A stretch of 24,068 nt of DNA, from positions 1 through 24,068 of the IMG/VR virus record IMGVR_UViG_3300032050_000805; one strand, 5' to 3'. The translations under genes and the position numbers were made by a program. The notes below the pieces were generated by a model. That model saw nothing but the letters and a program-made list of their open reading frames with translations, was not told the DNA's origin and did no database searches. The stretch is from a virus. This document shows, in pieces, positions 147 through 6,691 of the stretch; the stretch's first letter is position 1; each line of letters begins with the position of its first letter.

Positions 147-174
147 GGTTTTGAGGTTTAGAATCGGTTATTGG

Positions 175-402
175 TTAAATATGAATCATTTCGAGGGTTA
201 AACACATTTCAATGCTTTCGTTAGGGTAACGGCTCTTCAAGGCATCAATGAGTGCGTCGTTATCGTACCATTCTTCGTCATTTCGTTCAGACATAACAAT
301 TGGCTTTATGACTTCAACGACTTGATCGTGTGTTAGCGTGGTCACAATGATGAAGTTCTCTTCAGGGAAGGCTGTGGTGTTTACTACATAAATGTTTATC
401 AT
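175..402 (-). CDS. Small acidic hypothetical protein (75 aa)
   Basis: The 75-residue product has a hydrophobic beta-like N-terminus (MINIYVVNT, then FIIVTTL), an acidic centre (SERNDEEWYDND) and a predicted helix (ALIDALKSRY). This is a compact alpha/beta layout with no transmembrane segment or signal peptide. No family is recognised. The leader to the upstream gene is only 12 bases (403-414, AACCAAAAACCC on the coding strand), a variant of the AACCC-type start element of this arm. Its neighbours are similarly small acidic proteins, typical of phage early-region accessory genes that modulate host functions, but that role is inference from context only. Confidence 0.7.
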   Translation of the reverse strand: MINIYVVNTTAFPEENFIIVTTLTHDQVVEVIKPIVMSERNDEEWYDNDALIDALKSRYPNESIEMCLTLEMIHI

Positions 403-414
403 GGGTTTTTGGTT

Positions 415-624
415 TTAGATGTTTACTTCTTCTTCGGTTATATAATACTCTGATTCTACGTCGTATCCGTGTTCTTCATATTCTACGTTGAATGGCATAA
501 TCGGATCGTCCTGATTAATGCCTTCCTTGACTCTTTGTAATGCTTCGTCTTCGCTTTCTGCTTCGATATGGAAAAGTCGAATCATTATGATTGGCGTTTG
601 TTCAATGATGGTAAATCTTTTCAT
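415..624 (-). CDS. Small acidic hypothetical protein (69 aa)
   Basis: The 69-residue product starts MKRFTIIEQTPIIMIRLFHI, then has an acidic helical segment (EAESEDEALQRVKEG) and ends in an acidic tail (ITEEEVNI). The pattern of a beta strand followed by 'A-ES-EDEAL' is common in small ferredoxin-like or 'DpnD/PcfM-like' accessory proteins, where a strand is followed by a helix starting with an E-D-EA-L motif. I use that only as a structural hint. The leader is 11 bases (625-635, ACCTAAAACCT on the coding strand). The stop codon TAA is the start of the next downstream leader, in the context AACATCTAA, which is shared with two other genes of this arm. Confidence 0.7.
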   Translation of the reverse strand: MKRFTIIEQTPIIMIRLFHIEAESEDEALQRVKEGINQDDPIMPFNVEYEEHGYDVESEYYITEEEVNI

Positions 625-635
625 AGGTTTTAGGT

Positions 636-857
636 TTAGATGTTTGCTTCTACATAGGATGCGATTTCGTCTACCTGATCAGGCGTCAGTCCGTCAAGGC
701 AGTCTTCGTCGATGAATGCGTTAATCTCCAAGCTCCAATCGCTTGACTCAAAGGTGGCAGTGCCCGAGATTTCTCGTCCATCCCAATCGATGGACCATTC
801 GTAGTCCTTCCTTATTACTTCGGATGTCAAGTCTAGTTTTAAGTTCTGTGGTTTCAT
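636..857 (-). CDS. Small acidic hypothetical protein (73 aa)
   Basis: The 73-residue product has the segment YEWSIDWDGREISGTATFES, which reads as paired beta strands, followed by an acidic helical C-terminus (LTPDQVDEIASYVEANI). No catalytic motif, membrane segment or cysteine cluster is visible. The start has the full AACCC-type leader (858-878) and lies 18 bases after the stop of the gene upstream. It ends in AACATCTAA like the 415-624 and 2226-2618 genes. The 'WDG-E' segment is loosely reminiscent of a similar stretch (IEWDGEEL) in the DUF1281-like protein at 1640-2206. I could not decide whether that is homology or chance. Confidence 0.7.
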   Translation of the reverse strand: MKPQNLKLDLTSEVIRKDYEWSIDWDGREISGTATFESSDWSLEINAFIDEDCLDGLTPDQVDEIASYVEANI

Positions 858-860
858 TTG

Positions 861-878
861 ATAAGGGTTTAAGGGTTA
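861..878 (-). repeat. Start-associated element (copy at 636-857 gene)
   Basis: On the coding strand TAACCCTTAAACCCTTAT lies three bases before the ATG at 857 and begins with the TAA stop of the 876-1616 gene. It is the same element as at 2210-2228 with one T fewer. Confidence 0.8.
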
Positions 879-1616
879 GTGTACGTTGATGCTGACTGCT
901 TTCTTGCCCTTGCCCAGGATGCCCGAGCATAGGCCACACTTCTCGCAGGTGGACTTGTAGTTCGCCTCCTTGGAGGCAGGACACTGCACTCCCACGACGG
1001 GGTCATCTGACCCCTTGGCTAGGAACGATCGGAAACTTGACTGACCTGCAAGGTCGACCTCCGACTCGGTATGCACCGATGCCATGAACCAAGATGCAAA
1101 GGGCTTCGCCCAGTCTTTGGTCCACTGATGGGTGTAACCGGTCCACGTGGATGCCACACGGGCCATTTGGGAGACCAAGGTTGAATCCATTAGGCTCGGC
1201 TCACCATAGGTACCAAAGCGGACATATCGTCCCTCAGAGAGGCTGAGAATGCGTGTACGCTTGTCCTCGTTGAAGGGAGTGAGGTGTTCCCGCTTGATGC
1301 TACGCAGTTGGGATAGGAAGCCGGTGTACTGCTGATACTTGTGGGTGTAGCAGTCTCCCGTGCCGGAGTTAGCGGAGTAGGGGCAGTCCATGCAGTTGGA
1401 TGCATCGAGTGCGAAGAACTCCCGCATCTTTATCTTCCTCCCACAGTTGGCTATCTCCCACTGCTCGAGGGAGTAGGTGTTGGTTTGGATGATGGATGCG
1501 TTGGACTCGGTGATCTTCTCGTTGGAAGATGGAGCCAGGGCGATGACGAACAGGTTAGGTCCGTCGACGTAGACGACCTTCTCTTTGTGTCGTCGTGAGA
1601 TTTTGCGTGGTTTCAT
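876..1616 (-). CDS. Cysteine-rich phage/plasmid accessory protein (DUF7227-like)
   Basis: The 246-residue protein has eight cysteines that could form metal sites: C58; a CMDC cluster at 75-78 with C89; and a C-terminal group C212, C224, C227 and C230 in CPASKEAN...CEKCGLC. In the middle is a well-ordered segment RFGTYGEPSL (133-142), and WTGYTHQW at 158-165 is followed by a MASV stretch. I recall this combination from a family of uncharacterised phage and plasmid proteins (DUF7227-like). The family name is from memory and no function is known. A zinc- or Fe-S-binding role is inferred from cysteine spacing. The start is fixed by the AACCC leader at 1619-1636. It belongs to the leftward train between a DUF1281-like gene and small acidic genes. 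Confidence 0.75.
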   Translation of the reverse strand: MKPRKISRRHKEKVVYVDGPNLFVIALAPSSNEKITESNASIIQTNTYSLEQWEIANCGRKIKMREFFALDASNCMDCPYSANSGTGDCYTHKYQQYTGFLSQLRSIKREHLTPFNEDKRTRILSLSEGRYVRFGTYGEPSLMDSTLVSQMARVASTWTGYTHQWTKDWAKPFASWFMASVHTESEVDLAGQSSFRSFLAKGSDDPVVGVQCPASKEANYKSTCEKCGLCSGILGKGKKAVSINVH

Positions 1617-1618
1617 AC

Positions 1619-1636
1619 ATAAGGGTTTAAAGGGTT
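1619..1636 (-). repeat. Start-associated element (copy at 876-1616 gene)
   Basis: Coding strand AACCCTTTAAACCCTTAT ends two bases before the ATG at 1616. Here it lies three bases past the upstream stop codon (1640-1642) instead of including it. Confidence 0.8.
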
Positions 1637-1639
1637 GGT

Positions 1640-2206
1640 TTATTCGTTGTATATATCGATGATGTCTTGTCTATCTTCTTCGGATAGGAACGGGAATCGG
1701 TTCACGAAGTCTTCGGCGCTTAGCCCCTCCTCTTTAGCATTGTCCATCTGCCACTCCAATTCGCTCGTCATCCATTGGTCCGAGTCCATGGCATATACCC
1801 CTTCGTGGTAGTCCCACTCTTCTACATGCGTGGATAATTCCTCGCCATCCCATTCGATGGTGACCCTACCGGCGAAGTCGTTTCCGCATTCGCTATACTC
1901 CAACACTGCATTAACCTTGTACTTCTCGCACATATTCTTCACGAATGCTACGCAAGGGGACCAAGCGGTTTCGATGCTTAGGTTTAATTCGGTTTCTCCA
2001 TCCTCGTAAGATGTGTCTATCGGTCCGACATCCCACTTCGTCCCGTATTGGGAGCAGTTGTGGTTGTACCAGTCTTTCTCGTCAAAGGATGGATCTTTGC
2101 CGATGAGGGATTCGAATGAGTGTTCCTTTTGGAATCCTGCGTTGATTTGACGGATTGCATCCGCACTACCTGTAACGACGAGGTAGTTTGAGCACCAGTT
2201 TGGCAT
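1640..2206 (-). CDS. DUF1281/YubB ferredoxin-like protein
   Basis: The 188-residue product starts MPNWCSNYLVVTG, the characteristic opening of the DUF1281/YubB ferredoxin-like family found on plasmids and phages. It continues with YGTKWD (54-59), ETAWSPC (79-85) and a YSECGNDFAG stretch (104-113), also typical of that family. Function is unknown; the name refers to the fold, and no iron-sulfur cluster is implied. The reading frame stays open upstream to 2341, but the ATG at 2206-2204 is chosen because it begins the family motif and sits three bases after a perfect AACCC-type leader (2210-2228). The extra upstream codons translate that leader and the neighbouring gene and are not homologous. 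The C-terminus is acidic. Confidence 0.85.
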   Translation of the reverse strand: MPNWCSNYLVVTGSADAIRQINAGFQKEHSFESLIGKDPSFDEKDWYNHNCSQYGTKWDVGPIDTSYEDGETELNLSIETAWSPCVAFVKNMCEKYKVNAVLEYSECGNDFAGRVTIEWDGEELSTHVEEWDYHEGVYAMDSDQWMTSELEWQMDNAKEEGLSAEDFVNRFPFLSEEDRQDIIDIYNE

Positions 2207-2209
2207 GAG

Positions 2210-2228
2210 ATAAGGGTTTAAAGGGTTA
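2210..2228 (-). repeat. Start-associated element, perfect copy
   Basis: Coding strand TAACCCTTTAAACCCTTAT, three bases before the ATG of the DUF1281-like gene. Its first three bases are the stop codon of the 2226-2618 gene. It is identical to 2622-2640. Confidence 0.9.
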
Positions 2229-2618
2229 GATGTTGTTTTGTTGGCAGAAATTGTCGAAGTGGGCGTCCTCTTGGGCTTGGATGTGGTTGGACAGGTCTTT
2301 GTCCTCGATGTGGTCCTCGATGTCGTACTCGCCCTCCTCAATGAGTCTGAGGATGCTTAGTAGGGGCCTGATGGATATGTGCTTGAGTTCTCTAAATTCA
2401 GATTCTCCAAATGGTTCCATAACAAAGCACTGGCCGGTCATGTAGACCTCCTTGGTTTCCGAGTAGGTGTTTTCGTCTACGAAGTGGATGATTACATTGT
2501 GGTTGAGGACCACCCTATGGGCGTTATCCTTCTCGAGGATGTCTCGGATGGCATCAATGGCCTCCGTTTTCAGGACATCTAGCCTAAGGGCTAGTCGGTA
2601 TGCGAGGTCTCTGTTCAT
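2226..2618 (-). CDS. Hypothetical acidic protein (130 aa)
   Basis: The 130-residue product starts MNRDLAYRLALRLDVLKTEA, an amphipathic helix, continues with a beta-like section (RVVLNHNVIIHFVDE, then EVYMTGQCFVM) and ends in a very acidic helical tail (EEGEYDIEDHIEDKDLSNHI). No family is recognised. The frame is open further upstream to 2738, but the ATG at 2618-2616 directly follows the perfect leader element 2622-2640 and the upstream gene ends at 2638, so this start is preferred. The stop TAA (2228-2226) is the first three bases of the next leader element, in the AACATCTAA context shared with 415-624 and 636-857. Confidence 0.7.
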   Translation of the reverse strand: MNRDLAYRLALRLDVLKTEAIDAIRDILEKDNAHRVVLNHNVIIHFVDENTYSETKEVYMTGQCFVMEPFGESEFRELKHISIRPLLSILRLIEEGEYDIEDHIEDKDLSNHIQAQEDAHFDNFCQQNNI

Positions 2619-2621
2619 GAT

Positions 2622-2640
2622 ATAAGGGTTTAAAGGGTTA
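2622..2640 (-). repeat. Start-associated element, perfect copy
   Basis: Coding strand TAACCCTTTAAACCCTTAT, three bases before the ATG at 2618. Its first three bases are the stop codon of the GTG-start gene 2638-2856. Confidence 0.9.
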
Positions 2641-2856
2641 CATGCTGTTTTTTTGGCAGAATGCGCAACCGCGCACCTCATCGGGGTGTAGCATGACGGT
2701 AAATGTTTGTGTGCCATGGTCCATAGTAAATGTCTCAAAGGTTGCGAATACTACGCCTGAGTATTCATGGGCATAGAGGCCCTTAGAGCGATACCAAGCA
2801 ATGCAAAGGTTGATTTCTTCGGCGGTTGGGTTATGTGTTTTTACGGGTGTTTCCAC
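2638..2856 (-). CDS. Hypothetical protein with GTG start (72 aa)
   Basis: The open frame extends up to 3021, but that part overlaps the gene 2868-3293 on the same strand and reads as basic nonsense. The most upstream non-overlapping start is GTG at 2856-2854, 11 bases after that gene's stop and preceded by ACCCCAAACCC, a start-element variant. The resulting 72-residue product begins METPVKTHNPTAEEINLCIAWY, has a beta-like GVVFATFETFTM section and ends in CAFCQKNSM with a CxxC pair. No family is recognised. An annotation pipeline is likely to place this start too far upstream, so the GTG choice is worth noting. Confidence 0.65.
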   Translation of the reverse strand: METPVKTHNPTAEEINLCIAWYRSKGLYAHEYSGVVFATFETFTMDHGTQTFTVMLHPDEVRGCAFCQKNSM

Positions 2857-2867
2857 GGGTTTGGGGT

Positions 2868-3293
2868 TTATTGGTTGAGGTATTGGTTGTATTCTTCGAC
2901 TTCTGCTTCGAGGGTGCGGACCGCCTTGGCTACAAGGGATGCCGTTATACGCTTCACTCCGTACTCCTTGCGGAGTTTCTCCTTGGATACGAAGATGAAG
3001 CCTATTCGTCCGCTGTCCCATGGGCAGGAGAACGGCTTGGTTCTCAGGGCGATGACGCTATGCTCGAACATGTAGATAGGTAGGCAGACCGCTAGGTCGT
3101 GCACTTTCTCAAGGTATTTCTGCATTTCTCCCCATCCCGCGAAGTCTCTCTCATTGGGCTTGAAATGCCCCGGCAGATAGGGATTCTTGTCTCCTAGGTC
3201 GTACCTACGATGGTAGCAGACCATCGAGCCTAGGTTGTCGTCTTCCCTTGGGTTGCAAAGGACTTCTTCGGTTTCGTGCTGAATTTGATACAT
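2868..3293 (-). CDS. Conserved phage hypothetical protein with PFSCPWDSG motif
   Basis: The 141-residue protein contains MFEHSVIALRTKPFSCPWDSG (about 75-95) followed by IGFIFVSKEKLRKEYG. I recall this pattern, a histidine/serine stretch then PFSCPWDSG and GFI-V followed by a helix, from widespread uncharacterised phage proteins of tailed phages in many hosts. Function is unknown. The C-terminus (TASLVAKAVRTLEAEVEEYNQYL) is a likely amphipathic helix. The ATG at 3293-3291 follows leader element 3297-3312 by three bases. It lies in the leftward accessory train directly downstream of the RadC-like gene. Confidence 0.75.
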   Translation of the reverse strand: MYQIQHETEEVLCNPREDDNLGSMVCYHRRYDLGDKNPYLPGHFKPNERDFAGWGEMQKYLEKVHDLAVCLPIYMFEHSVIALRTKPFSCPWDSGRIGFIFVSKEKLRKEYGVKRITASLVAKAVRTLEAEVEEYNQYLNQ

Positions 3294-3296
3294 GAT

Positions 3297-3312
3297 ATAA
3301 GGGTTTAAAGGG
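3297..3312 (-). repeat. Start-associated element (copy at 2868-3293 gene)
   Basis: Coding strand CCCTTTAAACCCTTAT, three bases before the ATG at 3293. The flanking TAA of the perfect copies is changed to CCA, and the stop of the RadC-like gene lies 9 bases further on. Confidence 0.8.
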
Positions 3313-3321
3313 TGGATTTGG

Positions 3322-3771
3322 TTAGATTGTAGGCATGAGTCCTTCGTCCGCGAAGGACCTGTAATCGTTCTCCGTTAGGATGATGTGGTCGAGTACTCGA
3401 ATATCAAGGTAGCTTAGGGCGTACATTAGCTTTTTGGTCAGACCCCTGTCTACCTCAGACTCTTTGACGTTTCCGCTTGGATGGTTGTGTACCAAGATTA
3501 CGGCCGAGCAAAGGGAGTCCACTGCTAATTTACAAATGATTCGTGGGTCTACGACCGTTGCGGAGATTCCTCCCTGCGATATTTTAGCGTATTCGATGGT
3601 CCTGTTCGCCTGATTCATCATGATGATGAAAAAGGATTCATACAAGGTCAGGTCTTCGTGGTAGAATTGCCTGGCATAGGATTGAGCAATGTGCGAGGAT
3701 GTGATTTCGACCTGCTCAAAGGTAGATTCCTCGGCTACCGAGGTAATCTTGCGATGGGATGCGTACTTCAT
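3322..3771 (-). CDS. Free-standing RadC-like JAB/MPN domain protein
   Basis: The 149-residue protein carries the JAMM zinc motif H-x-H-x7-S-x2-D, seen as H95-N-H97 PSGNVKE S105 EV D108, with a candidate conserved glutamate at E45 (TLYESFFI). The VLVHNHPSG core is diagnostic of the RadC-like JAB family (PF04002). Host RadC is usually over 200 residues with an N-terminal helix-hairpin-helix region. That region is absent here, as in the short versions on Bacteroidota mobile elements and phages. The zinc-site residues look intact. The biochemical role of RadC-like proteins is unsettled (DNA repair and anti-restriction have both been proposed). The ATG at 3771-3769 has a partial leader (3774-3783). 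Two tiny membrane-peptide genes lie immediately upstream. Confidence 0.88.
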   Translation of the reverse strand: MKYASHRKITSVAEESTFEQVEITSSHIAQSYARQFYHEDLTLYESFFIIMMNQANRTIEYAKISQGGISATVVDPRIICKLAVDSLCSAVILVHNHPSGNVKESEVDRGLTKKLMYALSYLDIRVLDHIILTENDYRSFADEGLMPTI

Positions 3772-3773
3772 AC

Positions 3774-3783
3774 ATAAGGGTTT
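3774..3783 (-). repeat. Start-associated element, half copy (RadC-like gene)
   Basis: Coding strand AAACCCTTAT, two bases before the ATG at 3771. Only the start-proximal half of the element is kept; a separate TTAACCC occurs further upstream at 3802-3808. Confidence 0.65.
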
Positions 3784-3804
3784 CGTTGTTGAACATGTTG
3801 TGGG

Positions 3805-3909
3805 TTAAAATTTACGCTTGTCTTTTTTAGACGTGGTCAAGAATCGGACTATTGCCCTTGAACACAAGAGCGTACCGAGGAAGGTCAATAAAACGATGAG
3901 TGTTTCCAT
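3805..3909 (-). CDS. Small single-span membrane peptide (34 aa)
   Basis: This short gene runs from ATG 3909-3907 to TAA 3807-3805. The product METLIVLLTFLGTLL then CSRAIVRFLTT ends in a lysine-rich tail (KKDKRKF). That is one hydrophobic helix (about residues 4-24) with a cytoplasmic-type positive end. It lies 33 bases upstream of the RadC-like gene and 23 bases after the next small gene, on the same strand and in the same train, so it is likely real despite its length. Phage small membrane peptides include superinfection-exclusion, anti-holin and host-takeover factors, but nothing here selects among them. Confidence 0.5.
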   Translation of the reverse strand: METLIVLLTFLGTLLCSRAIVRFLTTSKKDKRKF

Positions 3910-3932
3910 GATGTGGTTTTTTTAGAGGGTTT

Positions 3933-4058
3933 TTAGGAAAAGATTAGAGCGAAGAGGAAACGTCCAAAGTAGCAGACGAACCAAAAGAAGGCAATGACTT
4001 TGACCCAAAGAGGGATAGATTGGTCATCACGAAGCGGAGTAGGGGAATTGTAACGCAT
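3933..4058 (-). CDS. Small membrane protein (41 aa)
   Basis: This short gene runs from ATG 4058-4056 to TAA 3935-3933. The product starts MRYNSPTPLRDDQSIPLW and then has an aromatic-rich hydrophobic helix (VKVIAFFWFVCYFGRFLFAL) reaching the C-terminus. A start-element fragment (4064-4072, CAACCCTTATAT on the coding strand) lies five bases upstream, which supports translation. It is the first gene of the leftward train after the terminator at 4164-4186, so it may head its own transcript. No family is recognised. The topology suggests one membrane span with a charged cytoplasmic N-terminus. Confidence 0.55.
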   Translation of the reverse strand: MRYNSPTPLRDDQSIPLWVKVIAFFWFVCYFGRFLFALIFS

Positions 4059-4067
4059 GAGATATAA

Positions 4068-4163
4068 GGGTTGAAGTGAAGGCACCCGTGCGGGGATGCC
4101 GAATGAATGAAGCCGTGCGGGGATGCCGCACGACAGATAGTGAACGATAGTGATAGTGAAGAC
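4068..4163 (-). promoter_or_regulatory. Repeat-rich leader between terminator and small membrane gene
   Basis: The stretch contains two exact copies of CCGTGCGGGGATGCCG (4086-4101 and 4113-4128, 27 bases apart). The second forms a perfect 7-bp hairpin, CGTGCGG/CCGCACG (4114-4132, 5-base loop). Three copies of GATAGTGA (TCACTATC in the transcribed direction) follow at 4136-4143, 4146-4153 and 4152-4159. No clear Bacteroidetes -7 box is visible. It probably controls the leftward train downstream, as a promoter/operator or a structured 5' leader. That is inference from position. Confidence 0.4.
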
Positions 4164-4186
4164 AAAAAAAAGGGCCGAAGCCCTTT
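4164..4186 (-). terminator. Intrinsic terminator after the 304-aa gene
   Basis: On the minus strand a 7-bp stem AAAGGGC/GCCCTTT (4186-4180 paired with 4175-4169) closes a TTCG tetraloop and is followed by five or more T residues (4168-4164). It starts four bases after the stop of the 4191-5105 gene, so transcription of that gene probably ends here and the small-gene train is transcribed at least partly from a separate start. Confidence 0.85.
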
Positions 4187-4190
4187 CTTG

Positions 4191-5105
4191 TTATCCCAAC
4201 ATCGCCTCCCGAATTTTATCTTCAAGTGCAATTCCCGAGGCTTGACTATCTTTTATCTTTTGTATTTTCTTATTCTTTACGGCCTTTTGTCCTGCTTCGA
4301 TTAATTCAGCGTCCGTCTTTAATATTGGAGCGGTTATTTTTTCGGCTGTTTCGTTCTCTACTTTGCGAACGCAATTTAAGATAATATTAAAGGCCTTTTC
4401 AAGGTCTGAATAACGGGCCGAACATAGAACGACGGGATTAATGTTGTCCGTACTAATTATCTTTAACTGAATATCCTCACTAATTAGGCCGTTCAAAGAT
4501 ACTTTGCTAATAGTAAAGGCCGAATTCCTCAAATTTGCTACGGCTTCGGCTTCGGCTTGTTCCCTTGCTTGTTCCTTTTCAGCTTCGGCTTCGGCCTTTT
4601 GCTGTTCCTTTTGTTTCTTTGCTTCGGCCTTTTCTTGTTCCTTTGCAAGGGATGAACGATAGATATCTAATCCGTTTAAATAGTCCGTAAAGGCTTGAAT
4701 CCCGTAAATAGGCCTTTTGCCGTTTGCAATAACCGAACGATTCAAGGCCTTAAATGTGTCAATATCCCGTCCGTCCTTTTCGGCCTTAGTGTAGGCTTTT
4801 TCAAGGTCTAAATATTTTCGAGTCATCCCGTACGAATAACCTACAAGGTCCGCAAACTTTTCTACATTCGGCCGTTTATCTTTGTCTAGTTTGTCGGTTA
4901 ATGTTTTGGCCTTCGCAATTAGTACGGCTTGTTTTAATGTGCCGTCTAAAATCGTTTCCGCTCCCGTTCGGGCCGTTTCCGATTCAGCGTTCCTCAAATT
5001 AGCCAATTCACTAACGATAACAGCAAATTGCTCGTTATCGGCGATGGTACAAAGTGTTAACGCGTTAACACTTTCTGCGGTGGTGGTGGTGGCGGTGGTG
5101 GTCAT
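4191..5105 (-). CDS. Helical coiled-coil protein beside the origin (304 aa)
   Basis: The product has a threonine-rich N-terminus (MTTTATTTTA) coded by an ACC trinucleotide run. It then has a mainly helical region with a possible helix-turn-helix (VEKFADLVGYSYGMTRKYLD, 81-100), a long charged coiled coil (about 152-190, KEQEKAEAKK repeats of K/E/A/Q) and a mixed C-terminal domain (198-304). The ATG at 5105 is preferred over the in-frame 5153 because a start element lies at 5109-5128 and the candidate promoter is at 5153-5160. As the first leftward gene next to an iteron region, it could be a partition, copy-control or repressor-type DNA-binding protein. No family is recognised, so this is inference. 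It has its own terminator. Confidence 0.7.
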   Translation of the reverse strand: MTTTATTTTAESVNALTLCTIADNEQFAVIVSELANLRNAESETARTGAETILDGTLKQAVLIAKAKTLTDKLDKDKRPNVEKFADLVGYSYGMTRKYLDLEKAYTKAEKDGRDIDTFKALNRSVIANGKRPIYGIQAFTDYLNGLDIYRSSLAKEQEKAEAKKQKEQQKAEAEAEKEQAREQAEAEAVANLRNSAFTISKVSLNGLISEDIQLKIISTDNINPVVLCSARYSDLEKAFNIILNCVRKVENETAEKITAPILKTDAELIEAGQKAVKNKKIQKIKDSQASGIALEDKIREAMLG

Positions 5106-5108
5106 GGT

Positions 5109-5128
5109 ATAAGGTATAAAAGGGTTAA
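5109..5128 (-). repeat. Start-associated element, divergent copy
   Basis: The coding strand reads TTAACCCTTTTATACCTTAT, three bases before the ATG of the 304-aa gene. The second AACCC is altered to ATACC, but length, flanks and distance to the start are kept. Confidence 0.65.
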
Positions 5129-5152
5129 ATTCGGGCTCATTCCCGAACAACA

Positions 5153-5160
5153 CAAAAGTA
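5153..5160 (-). promoter_or_regulatory. Candidate Bacteroidetes -7 box, leftward promoter
   Basis: On the minus strand the sequence reads TACTTTTG, matching the Bacteroidetes -7 consensus TAnnTTTG. It would start transcription about 5145-5150 and give a leader of roughly 40 bases before the ATG at 5105. A well-spaced -33 TTTG was not found, so this is moderate evidence. GGACA half-sites at 5206-5254 lie just upstream. Confidence 0.45.
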
Positions 5161-5202
5161 CAAAACGGCCTTCAAAGTTGTATCGTTTGCAGTGTCTTAT
5201 TA

Positions 5203-5254
5203 TTAGGACAAATGGTGTATTATTTTTAGGACACATTGTCCATTTTATTGGACA
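5203..5254. promoter_or_regulatory. Cluster of GGACA half-sites (candidate operator)
   Basis: GGACA occurs at 5206-5210, 5229-5233 and 5250-5254, and the complement TGTCC at 5237-5241, inside about 50 bases. The repeats are 21-23 bases apart (two helical turns). They form dyads GGACA-CAT-TGTCC (5229-5241) and TGTCCA-TTTTAT-TGGACA (5237-5254). The position, 45-100 bases upstream of the leftward candidate promoter, suits a regulator-binding region. The same TGTCCA/TGGACA pair recurs in the hairpin at 5743-5774. Confidence 0.5.
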
Positions 5255-5288
5255 CAATTAATTTTTAACCTAACGCCTCCCTTTGTAT

Positions 5289-5596
5289 AGTGTTATAACA
5301 CAAGATACATTTCGTCCCTAATTTTTCCCACAAAGAAAAAACAAGATAGGCTTTGCAATATGTTACAACATCAAATACATTTTCCCTTCATTCAATGTTA
5401 CCAACACAATATCCATCATTTTTGTATTTAGTGTTACCAACACTGAATACATTACTTGCAACATGTTTTGTTTGTTTTGTGTTACCGACACAATACGAAC
5501 AAAATAGACCTACCTATTCATCCTGTGTTACCATAACAACAGATACACTAACCAATTGTTGTACAATGTGTTATATAACACAATGTAAACAGGTAA
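5289..5596. repeat. Iteron-like array, seven GTGTTACC-type repeats
   Basis: Seven related repeats begin at 5289, 5360, 5395, 5430, 5478, 5524 and 5567. The consensus is RTGTTACCAACACAATACAT. Within each, GTGTT/AACAC forms a short dyad: exact GTGTTATAACAC at 5290-5301, GTGTTACCAACAC at 5431-5443 and GTGTTATATAACAC at 5568-5581. Starts are 35 to 70 bases apart. The region is non-coding and precedes a RepL-like gene, so iterons of a replication origin or repressor operators are the best readings. Confidence 0.65.
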
Positions 5597-5712: not shown

Positions 5713-6158
5713 CGTCAGCTCCAGGCTGACGTAGCTGATACGATGTCCAGTAAATTAGCATAAAAACTGGACATTCAGGGTCGGATTAGCTTACAGTGTC
5801 AGTGACACTGCAACCAAACCTGTCACATTTTCAGCACTAATTCGGGATAATTCCGACCTAATGTGCCTTAAAAGGCACAAATGAGGGTCATTTTGGGTCG
5901 TAGGAGGGACATTAAGTGGTTACATGTGGTAACCAGTTGTACGATTTGGTCGTACAGGTGGGGGCATTAGGGGTTGCATCCCTACCGGGACACATCCCCA
6001 AAATGGGGGGATGATCCTATTGGCTACGCTTTGTAGTCAACTGGGTTTTACTACTTCATTTAGGGTCCTATTCTTCTATATACAAGACACTTTTTTGGGG
6101 TGTTTCAAAATAGTGCCTCTACGCTATTGAAAACAGCGTTTTTTAGGGGGTCTAAAAA
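5713..6158. repeat. Tandem array of short hairpins
   Basis: The following inverted repeats are visible: 5713-5731 (7-bp stem, 5-nt loop), 5743-5774 (9 bp, ATGTCCAGT/ACTGGACAT, 14-nt loop), 5794-5810 (CAGTGTCA/TGACACTG), 5862-5879 (TGTGCCTT/AAGGCACA), 5917-5935 (7+5), 5938-5956 (7+5), 5993-6013 (CATCCCC/GGGGATG), 6021-6039 (7+5 with one wobble), 6109-6128 (7+6 with one wobble) and 6140-6158 (7+5). Stem sequences differ but geometry recurs. No gene is present. It may be a single-strand origin, a packaging or resolution site, or a structured RNA. Confidence 0.6.
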
Positions 6159-6208: not shown

Positions 6209-6243
6209 TTTGGAACCCAAGTGGGTCATTTGGGTTATCTTTG
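6209..6243 (+). promoter_or_regulatory. Candidate Bacteroidetes promoter for the replication gene
   Basis: TATCTTTG at 6236-6243 matches the -7 consensus TAnnTTTG, with a TTTG at 6209-6212 as a possible -33 element. The 23-base gap is slightly longer than usual. A start a few bases past 6243 would fall at or beside the ATG at 6248, predicting a leaderless or nearly leaderless mRNA. Confidence 0.5.
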
Positions 6244-6247
6244 TAGC

Positions 6248-6691
6248 ATGGCTAAATACGTACGGAAGCGTTCTCTGTTGGATGAGGAGACTGGGGAGAA
6301 GTTCATCTCTGATGAGCACGTAAGGGTTCATAGCGGGTCCACTTGGGACCGCGGTAGGTTCGTCAAGCTGTTCTTACCCGCTATAGACGTTTTAATGCGT
6401 TTTAAGCCCTCCGAGTTGCAGTTGGCTATGCACGTACTCCAGCGTCTTAAAAGTGGCTCCAGGGTCGTCGCATTGAGTTTTACGAGCTATCAGGACTTCT
6501 GCCAGGTACAGCTCGGGAAGACGGCCGATAGGTCGGCCTACCACAAGGCTGTGAAGGCATTGGTTCGGGAGGGGTTGTTGGTTCGTTCGGGGAATGAGTG
6601 GTTGGTGAACCATCGTTTGGTCTTTGTGGGGGATCGGGGGAAGTACTTATTTGGGGAAAAGTTGGGTGATTCGGAACTTGGGCGTAGTTGA
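6248..6691 (+). CDS. RepL-like winged-helix replication initiator
   Basis: The 147-residue protein starts MAKYVRKRSLLDEETGEKF. The LLDEETGE opening, a following FVKLFLPAIDVLMRFKPSEL segment (38-57) and a C-terminal winged-helix-like region (about 74-125, with KAVKALVREGLLVRSGNEW) match my memory of the RepL plasmid replication family (PF05732). That family initiates replication by binding the origin near its own gene. The ATG at 6248 is preferred over the in-frame 6188, which would read through the twin dyads and promoter. The neighbouring iterons, dyads and hairpins support an origin function. It could instead be a winged-helix regulator; the family assignment was not tested by search. Confidence 0.65.
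   Translation: MAKYVRKRSLLDEETGEKFISDEHVRVHSGSTWDRGRFVKLFLPAIDVLMRFKPSELQLAMHVLQRLKSGSRVVALSFTSYQDFCQVQLGKTADRSAYHKAVKALVREGLLVRSGNEWLVNHRLVFVGDRGKYLFGEKLGDSELGRS

Follow-up and report, generated by a model that had tools for sequence, protein, structure and literature searches.

The window analysed here is a stretch of 24,068 nucleotides (24 kb) from the viral record IMGVR_UViG_3300032050_000805, in which a rightward arm codes for the large terminase, the portal, and virion proteins. In this phage, nearly all genes of the other arm are directly preceded by a short, G-free 'TAAACCC' leader, the core of which is found across the clade. We refer to these non-virion genes, which are encoded on the other strand from the virion genes, as the early arm, a label that implies no expression timing. 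The leaders form a real family anchored to start codons, with a new sequence and in a new host group. Judging from the sequences, we consider it probable that the element is the translation-initiation leader of the early-arm genes, an amplified version of the Bacteroidota signal that operates without a Shine-Dalgarno (SD) sequence.

The large terminase of the window shares about 25% identity with that of one crAss-like phage and 22% with those of Flavobacterium phages. A 71-kb contig, G001, is near-identical to the window and has the same terminase at the protein level. Further relatives are G002 and G026 (~90-94% over shared proteins) and G003-G006 (85% in the terminase). The relatives and the promoter type point to Bacteroidota as the probable host group. 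A scan for the terminase (TerL) across GTDB genomes, aimed at finding the host, gave no match, and a RadC scan returned one relative, in Flavivirga, whose sole use was as a way into Bacteroidota genomes.

Anchoring to start codons and composition of the leader

Genes were called from codon use alone, blind to the upstream sequence. A search of the window with AACCCTTTAAACC, allowing up to three mismatches, returned 19 matches against 7.9 ± 3.2 expected, and none of 100 shuffles gave as many. All matches with zero or one mismatch lay on the leftward strand, directly 5' of a start. The six window copies of the 19-nt long form TAACCCTTTAAACCCTTAT (at most four mismatches) all sit 2-3 nt 5' of a start, where 0.05 would be expected, and the long copies in G001 are start-adjacent in five of five cases. 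Taken together, the long copies of the window and G001 lie 2-4 nt 5' of starts and in gene orientation only. Moreover, 19 of the 50 occurrences of the core TAAACC in G001 fall within 15 nt of a start versus 0.57 expected, an enrichment of about 33-fold, although this and the other enrichment tests assume independent copies, an assumption that related copies violate. AAACCC is found mostly 6-8 nt 5' of the start. The shuffle and start-proximity tests, with the best matches all at starts, confirmed the start-associated element that an earlier note on this DNA had described.

In the clade core, (T)AAACCC, the A's fall at -13 to -11 and the C's at -10 to -8, and G is nearly absent. Among the 55 early-arm leaders of G001, A occupies -13 in 58%, -12 in 73%, and -11 in 69%, while C occupies -9 in 67% and -8 in 51%; on the start-proximal side, A stands at -5/-4 and C at -2/-1. 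The corresponding values in other genes are 37% for A at -12 (P 4e-4) and 29% for C at -9 (P 2e-4), and G amounts to 8% of the leaders overall versus 24% of coding sequence. The other genes of G001 keep the A peak at -13 and lack the C tract. Nearer to the start, A reaches 56-58% at -4/-5, 42% at -6, and 45% at -3, the last not significantly above other genes. Two AACCCTTwA units, arranged head to tail, make up the long form. Between orthologous leaders of the window and G001, the start-proximal half, AAACCCTTAT, is conserved and the distal half variable, so that the proximal half is likely the functional part.

In k-mer tests performed per genome, TAAACC, CTAAAC, and AAACCC came first or nearly so in the close relatives; in G003-G006, this was true of TAAACC/CCAAAC. 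The distant G016, G017, G020, and G023 showed no such k-mer enrichment; their leaders are A/T-rich. Among 2.9 million viral contigs, the exact 19-mer occurred in one other contig, the near-identical G001, and the long form is therefore lineage-specific. The 19-mer is a local elaboration of the shorter clade-wide leader, and the relatives carry repeated variants of their own. In 247 Bacteroidota genomes, TAAACCCN7ATG was in most about as common as the reversed control, and in five genomes with a large excess the sampled DNA showed no such leader as a rule. A literature search for leaders of this type in Bacteroidota phages found nothing relevant.

A probable role in translation initiation, and competing readings

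Bacteroidota ribosomes work without SD pairing. In Flavobacterium johnsoniae, translation is raised by A at -3, -6, -12, and -13 together with low structure, and bS1 has been suggested to touch the mRNA at -12 to -15 (PMC6847099). The A block of the early-arm leaders coincides with this A(-12/-13) signal. An A peak at -13..-11 is also present, more weakly, in the sampled Bacteroidota chromosomes and in the isolated crAss-like phages crAss001, phi14:2, and cr10_1, in which the C tract is absent. For -20..-1, the predicted probability of being unpaired is 0.695 in the early arm versus 0.528 in other genes (P 2e-6) and 0.491 in random leaders (P 5e-12). Furthermore, host-type -7 boxes (TAnnTTTG) were found 26-35 nt 5' of the start with the leader in between (G001 649, 59963, and 67653; G004 11225 and 20074). 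The leader is downstream of the box in these genes and thus constitutes the 5' end of the mRNA there, not the promoter. The positional match at A(-12/-13), transcription where a promoter is recognisable, and the predicted lack of structure make a translation-initiation signal suited to Bacteroidota the best supported of the functions considered in the earlier note, and from them we infer a translational effect.

The element had also been said to usually contain the previous stop codon. Indeed, in all nine compact junctions checked, TAA is followed directly by (A)(A)ACC, which places the stop of the previous gene within the leader or at its margin. We propose that the core (T)AAACCC, together with the A/C- or T/A-rich nucleotides between it and the start codon, would act as a clade-specific SD-independent initiation signal, offering a G-free, unstructured landing strip with the A block at the presumed bS1-mRNA contact. 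In compact operons, the leader opens with the TAA of the upstream gene, so that a terminating ribosome might already stand on the next leader. The long form would have been copied among unrelated neighbouring genes, and its copies could provide short homologies for the loss or gain of whole genes.

Several observations weigh against this proposal. The C tract is no part of the Bacteroidota signal as described so far, and none of 10 sampled Bacteroidota chromosomes showed it. The exact 19-mer copies exceed the needs of a loose initiation context, so that copying by recombination must be added. A protein may also bind these leaders on the RNA.

Such a protein could be a trans-acting regulator, for instance a phage translational repressor or activator with RegA-like logic that recognises AAACCC on the mRNA across the start region and coordinates the early genes. 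The long copies are conserved beyond composition, the leaders are concentrated in one gene class, and two protomers could be accommodated by the directly repeated AACCCTTwA. However, the core differs widely among genes (CTAAACCCCAAAACC, TTAAACCCAAAACAACC etc.), the relatives bear different repeated variants in this position, and no known translational regulator family was found among the 55 early-arm proteins scanned. We consider a regulator of this kind unlikely. A regulator site on the DNA, another suggestion of the earlier note, is not supported: the leader lacks inverted symmetry, is invariably in gene orientation, and has no upstream partner motif, as we found no second conserved element 35-12 nt 5' of the core.

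The same lack of a partner element and of inverted symmetry argues against a promoter or operator, such as a site for a phage sigma factor yielding leaderless or near-leaderless transcripts for each gene. Although a sigma factor is encoded in G001, and a host-type -7 box at exactly -12 in a few genes (one in the window) makes leaderless transcripts plausible in the clade, the leader lies 3' of such a box in several genes, and the genes are tightly spaced in one-strand operons. The Sigma-ABfr promoter TTTG ... TAnnTTTG (-33/-7) is absent from the leader and was found upstream of it in several genes. We regard a promoter as very improbable. The boxes exactly 12 nt 5' of a start, TATCTTTG/TATCTTTA/TACCTTTA/TATATTTG, are located at window 6236-6250, at G001 47862, 60306, and 65880, and at G004 16292; leaderless mRNA is predicted from this spacing.

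Hardly credible in our judgement is a fourth reading, in which the long leader pairs in trans with a conserved internal segment of Bacteroidota 16S rRNA, GGGUUUAAAGGGU (near nt 560-575), on ribosomes or the assembling 30S, as an SD-like contact outside the 3' tail. If true, the phage would favour its early mRNAs on ribosomes with a sequestered anti-SD. The sequence ACCCTTTAAACCC is perfectly complementary to GGGUUUAAAGGGU, over 13 nt in the 16S of G241 and over 12 nt in G060, where the segment ends GGGA. Shuffles were as strong in 0 of 200 and 1 of 200 cases, and CTTTAAACCCAAT, a leader of different sequence, is likewise matched to this segment over 13 nt. The comparison was also made with the 16S gene alone. 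However, the target is a long C-free run of 16S, which G-free leaders match preferentially, and the match is lost in the relatives' own repeated leaders AACCCTTTTTAACCC and AAACCTTTAACACC. Over 59 non-redundant leaders, matches of 9 and 10 nt numbered 6 and 2 versus 5-7 and 1-2 from a Markov model. In the mature 30S, moreover, this segment is part of the central domain and distant from the mRNA path, which also counts against pairing. As a general rule, 16S pairing was rejected, there being no excess in the bulk of the leaders.

If the leader is indeed a translation signal, a clade with a near-constant leader and a C tract unused by the sampled hosts would supply natural strong variants for probing how Bacteroidota ribosomes pick starts without SD pairing, with regard to A(-12/-13), the bS1 contact, and the role of the C's.

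Leader copies and the exchange of genes

The copies in the window, all on the minus strand, are as follows.

147..174 (-), leader ending TCTAAACCTCAAAACC, 5' of the gene starting at 146, which runs off the window
403..417 (-), short leader TAAAACCAAAAACCC, 5' of gene 175-402; the TAA in it terminates gene 415-624
625..638 (-), short leader TAAACCTAAAACCT, 5' of gene 415-624; the TAA in it terminates gene 636-857
861..878 (-), near-full copy TAACCCTTAAACCCTTAT, 5' of gene 636-857; the TAA in it terminates gene 876-1616
1619..1636 (-), full copy AACCCTTTAAACCCTTAT, 5' of gene 876-1616 (phrog_2554)
2210..2228 (-), full copy TAACCCTTTAAACCCTTAT, 5' of gene 1640-2206 (Api92-like, DUF1281_C); junction recombined in the relative G001
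2622..2640 (-), full copy TAACCCTTTAAACCCTTAT, 5' of gene 2226-2618
2860..2870 (-), short leader TAAACCCCAAACCC, extending into the start-codon side, 5' of gene 2638-2859, which has a GTG start
3297..3314 (-), near-full copy CACCCTTTAAACCCTTAT, 5' of gene 2868-3293
3774..3784 (-), half copy GAAACCCTTAT, 5' of the RadC-like gene 3322-3771; a fuller copy stands here in G001
3910..3932 (-), AACC-type leader, 5' of a small leftward open reading frame starting at 3909
4064..4074 (-), half copy CAACCCTTAT, 5' of a small leftward open reading frame starting at 4059
5109..5128 (-), diverged copy TTAACCCTTTTATACCTTAT, 5' of gene 4191-5105, with which the leftward arm begins

The positions first reported for these copies proved accurate to 1-2 bases, the half copies and the short AACC leaders included. 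The statement that rightward genes go without the element holds for the long form but not for weaker A-rich leaders, which occur at a few virion genes (for example before 13441, 14600, and 18977). The description as telomere-like is a resemblance of letters only. The most telomere-like case is L072 (minus strand of G004, 27763 upstream), in which TAAACCC units (TAAACCCTAAACCCTAAACCCTAAACCC) follow one another head to tail immediately 5' of a gene. Another repeated upstream element, CTCCGGGATGGGAGATATACC..., precedes several genes near TATACTATAATATACTTT repeats in L070 (G026, ~2640-3990 and 5880-5906) and in G004 near 25549.

Leader pairs matching at least at 16 of 22 positions number 13 in the window and 20 in G001, against 0.1 and 0.3, respectively, when columns are shuffled among leaders. 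None of these leader-sharing gene pairs, 13 in the window and 20 in G001, is protein-homologous, and gene duplication was therefore rejected as the origin of the shared leaders. The relatives repeat other leaders, such as AACCCTTTTTAACCCAAACAAA before several unrelated genes of G006 and AAACCTTTAACACCAAAGAGAA in G017.

At 52820-52838, G001 contains a chimeric junction, GCCAACAAAACAACATC-TAACCCTTTAAACCCTTAT-GTATGAAACCACGC. Its left part is the window flank 5' of the Api92-like gene (1640-2206), at the copy 2210-2228, and its right part the window start of gene 876-1616, after the copy 1619-1636. The Api92-like gene is absent from G001 between the two joined flanks, and one chimeric copy is left. 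G002 retains the gene in this position, which makes its loss from G001, by an event between two direct repeats, the simpler and probable history. An assembly artefact is unlikely, as the shared string is only ~18 nt and assembler k-mers are normally longer. Leaders also bound two more gene differences: G001 has a gene of 91 residues, and elsewhere a gene of 73 residues stands against one of 197. G001 also codes for an Erf/Rad52-type annealing protein and exonuclease VIII, which could act on such short homologies.

A recombination seam between cassettes, likewise raised in the earlier note, is thereby supported as a second consequence: the 19-mer is common to non-homologous genes and a gene is missing exactly between copies, so that the leaders also serve as recombination seams. 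One could go further and take the element as primarily a recombination boundary, its place before starts reflecting sites where joining does no damage. The chimeric junction with its 18-nt repeat and missing gene, the two leader-flanked differences, the leaders common to unrelated genes, and the encoded Erf/Rad52 and exonuclease VIII all fit this. However, the core is fixed relative to the start codon and the Bacteroidota A positions, leaders also stand directly after promoters, and a leader on every gene would make any gain or loss look leader-bounded. We find a primary role in recombination improbable. The translation-initiation leader, with copying added, would instead show a translation signal doubling as homology for phage gene shuffling.

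Among the neighbouring genes, the RadC-like JAB-domain protein (window 3322-3771) has a 58%-identical relative in the Flavivirga aquimarina genome. The early arm of G001 (L064-L067) codes for a Thoeris anti-defence 2-like (Tad2) protein, a sigma-70 family factor, MazG, and a RusA-like resolvase. The giant virion protein showed no RNA polymerase domain by Pfam in three pieces (~2,700 of 2,978 residues). In and beside the long region separating the two gene arms, window 5055-5541 holds about six to seven TGTTA(n)TAACA palindromes (5055, 5291, 5361, 5396, 5432, 5480, and 5526), and the highest-density clusters of G001, G002, G004, and G006 are similar. They possibly represent origin iterons or early-arm operators. 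A scan of the whole window with three mismatches revealed no excess of TGTTA(n)TAACA, so the case for an array rests on clustering and conservation.

Comparison with known systems

The likeness to the start-associated sequences (SAS) of cluster K mycobacteriophages, noticed earlier, holds for place and distribution, whereas the sequence is unrelated and the host group different. The function of SAS and of the extended form (ESAS) is unproven, with a role placed at translation initiation (PMC3203893). As here, SAS is a short repeat near starts (3-7 bp in SAS) in one orientation, confined to the non-structural arm, common to unrelated genes, and at times containing the previous stop codon (PMC3203893). 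However, the 13-bp asymmetric SAS, GGGATAGGAGCCC, contains the SD core AGGAG, whereas the phage leader described here is G-free and thus cannot pair with the anti-SD. Nor did we see the 17-bp inverted repeats of ESAS or any conserved block upstream of the leader.

A close parallel in the host group is the Kozak-like, SD-independent region of Flavobacterium johnsoniae (PMC6847099), which likewise has A at -12/-13, low structure (predicted in the phage), and no SD. It is also A-rich at -6..-3, a stretch in which the early-arm leaders have most A at -4/-5. The phage leader differs by its C tract at -10..-8, its near-zero G, and its long near-identical copies, features of this clade only.

The epsilon translational enhancer of T7 gene 10 is a G-poor leader with proposed internal 16S complementarity. 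The leaders are alike in being G-poor, in lying 5' of the start, and in a proposed internal 16S complementarity, but epsilon works together with an SD in T7, while the phage leader has none. The T7 gene 10 ribosome-binding site is treated in PMC8748333.

Finally, boundary sequences at phage module junctions (PMC3029335) are also short, conserved junction sequences for gene exchange or loss. In contrast to these, the boundary here would be the translation leader itself, standing at nearly all genes of one arm. A recombinant junction running through the repeat, as known from module boundaries, was found in one clear case, at G001 52820-52838.

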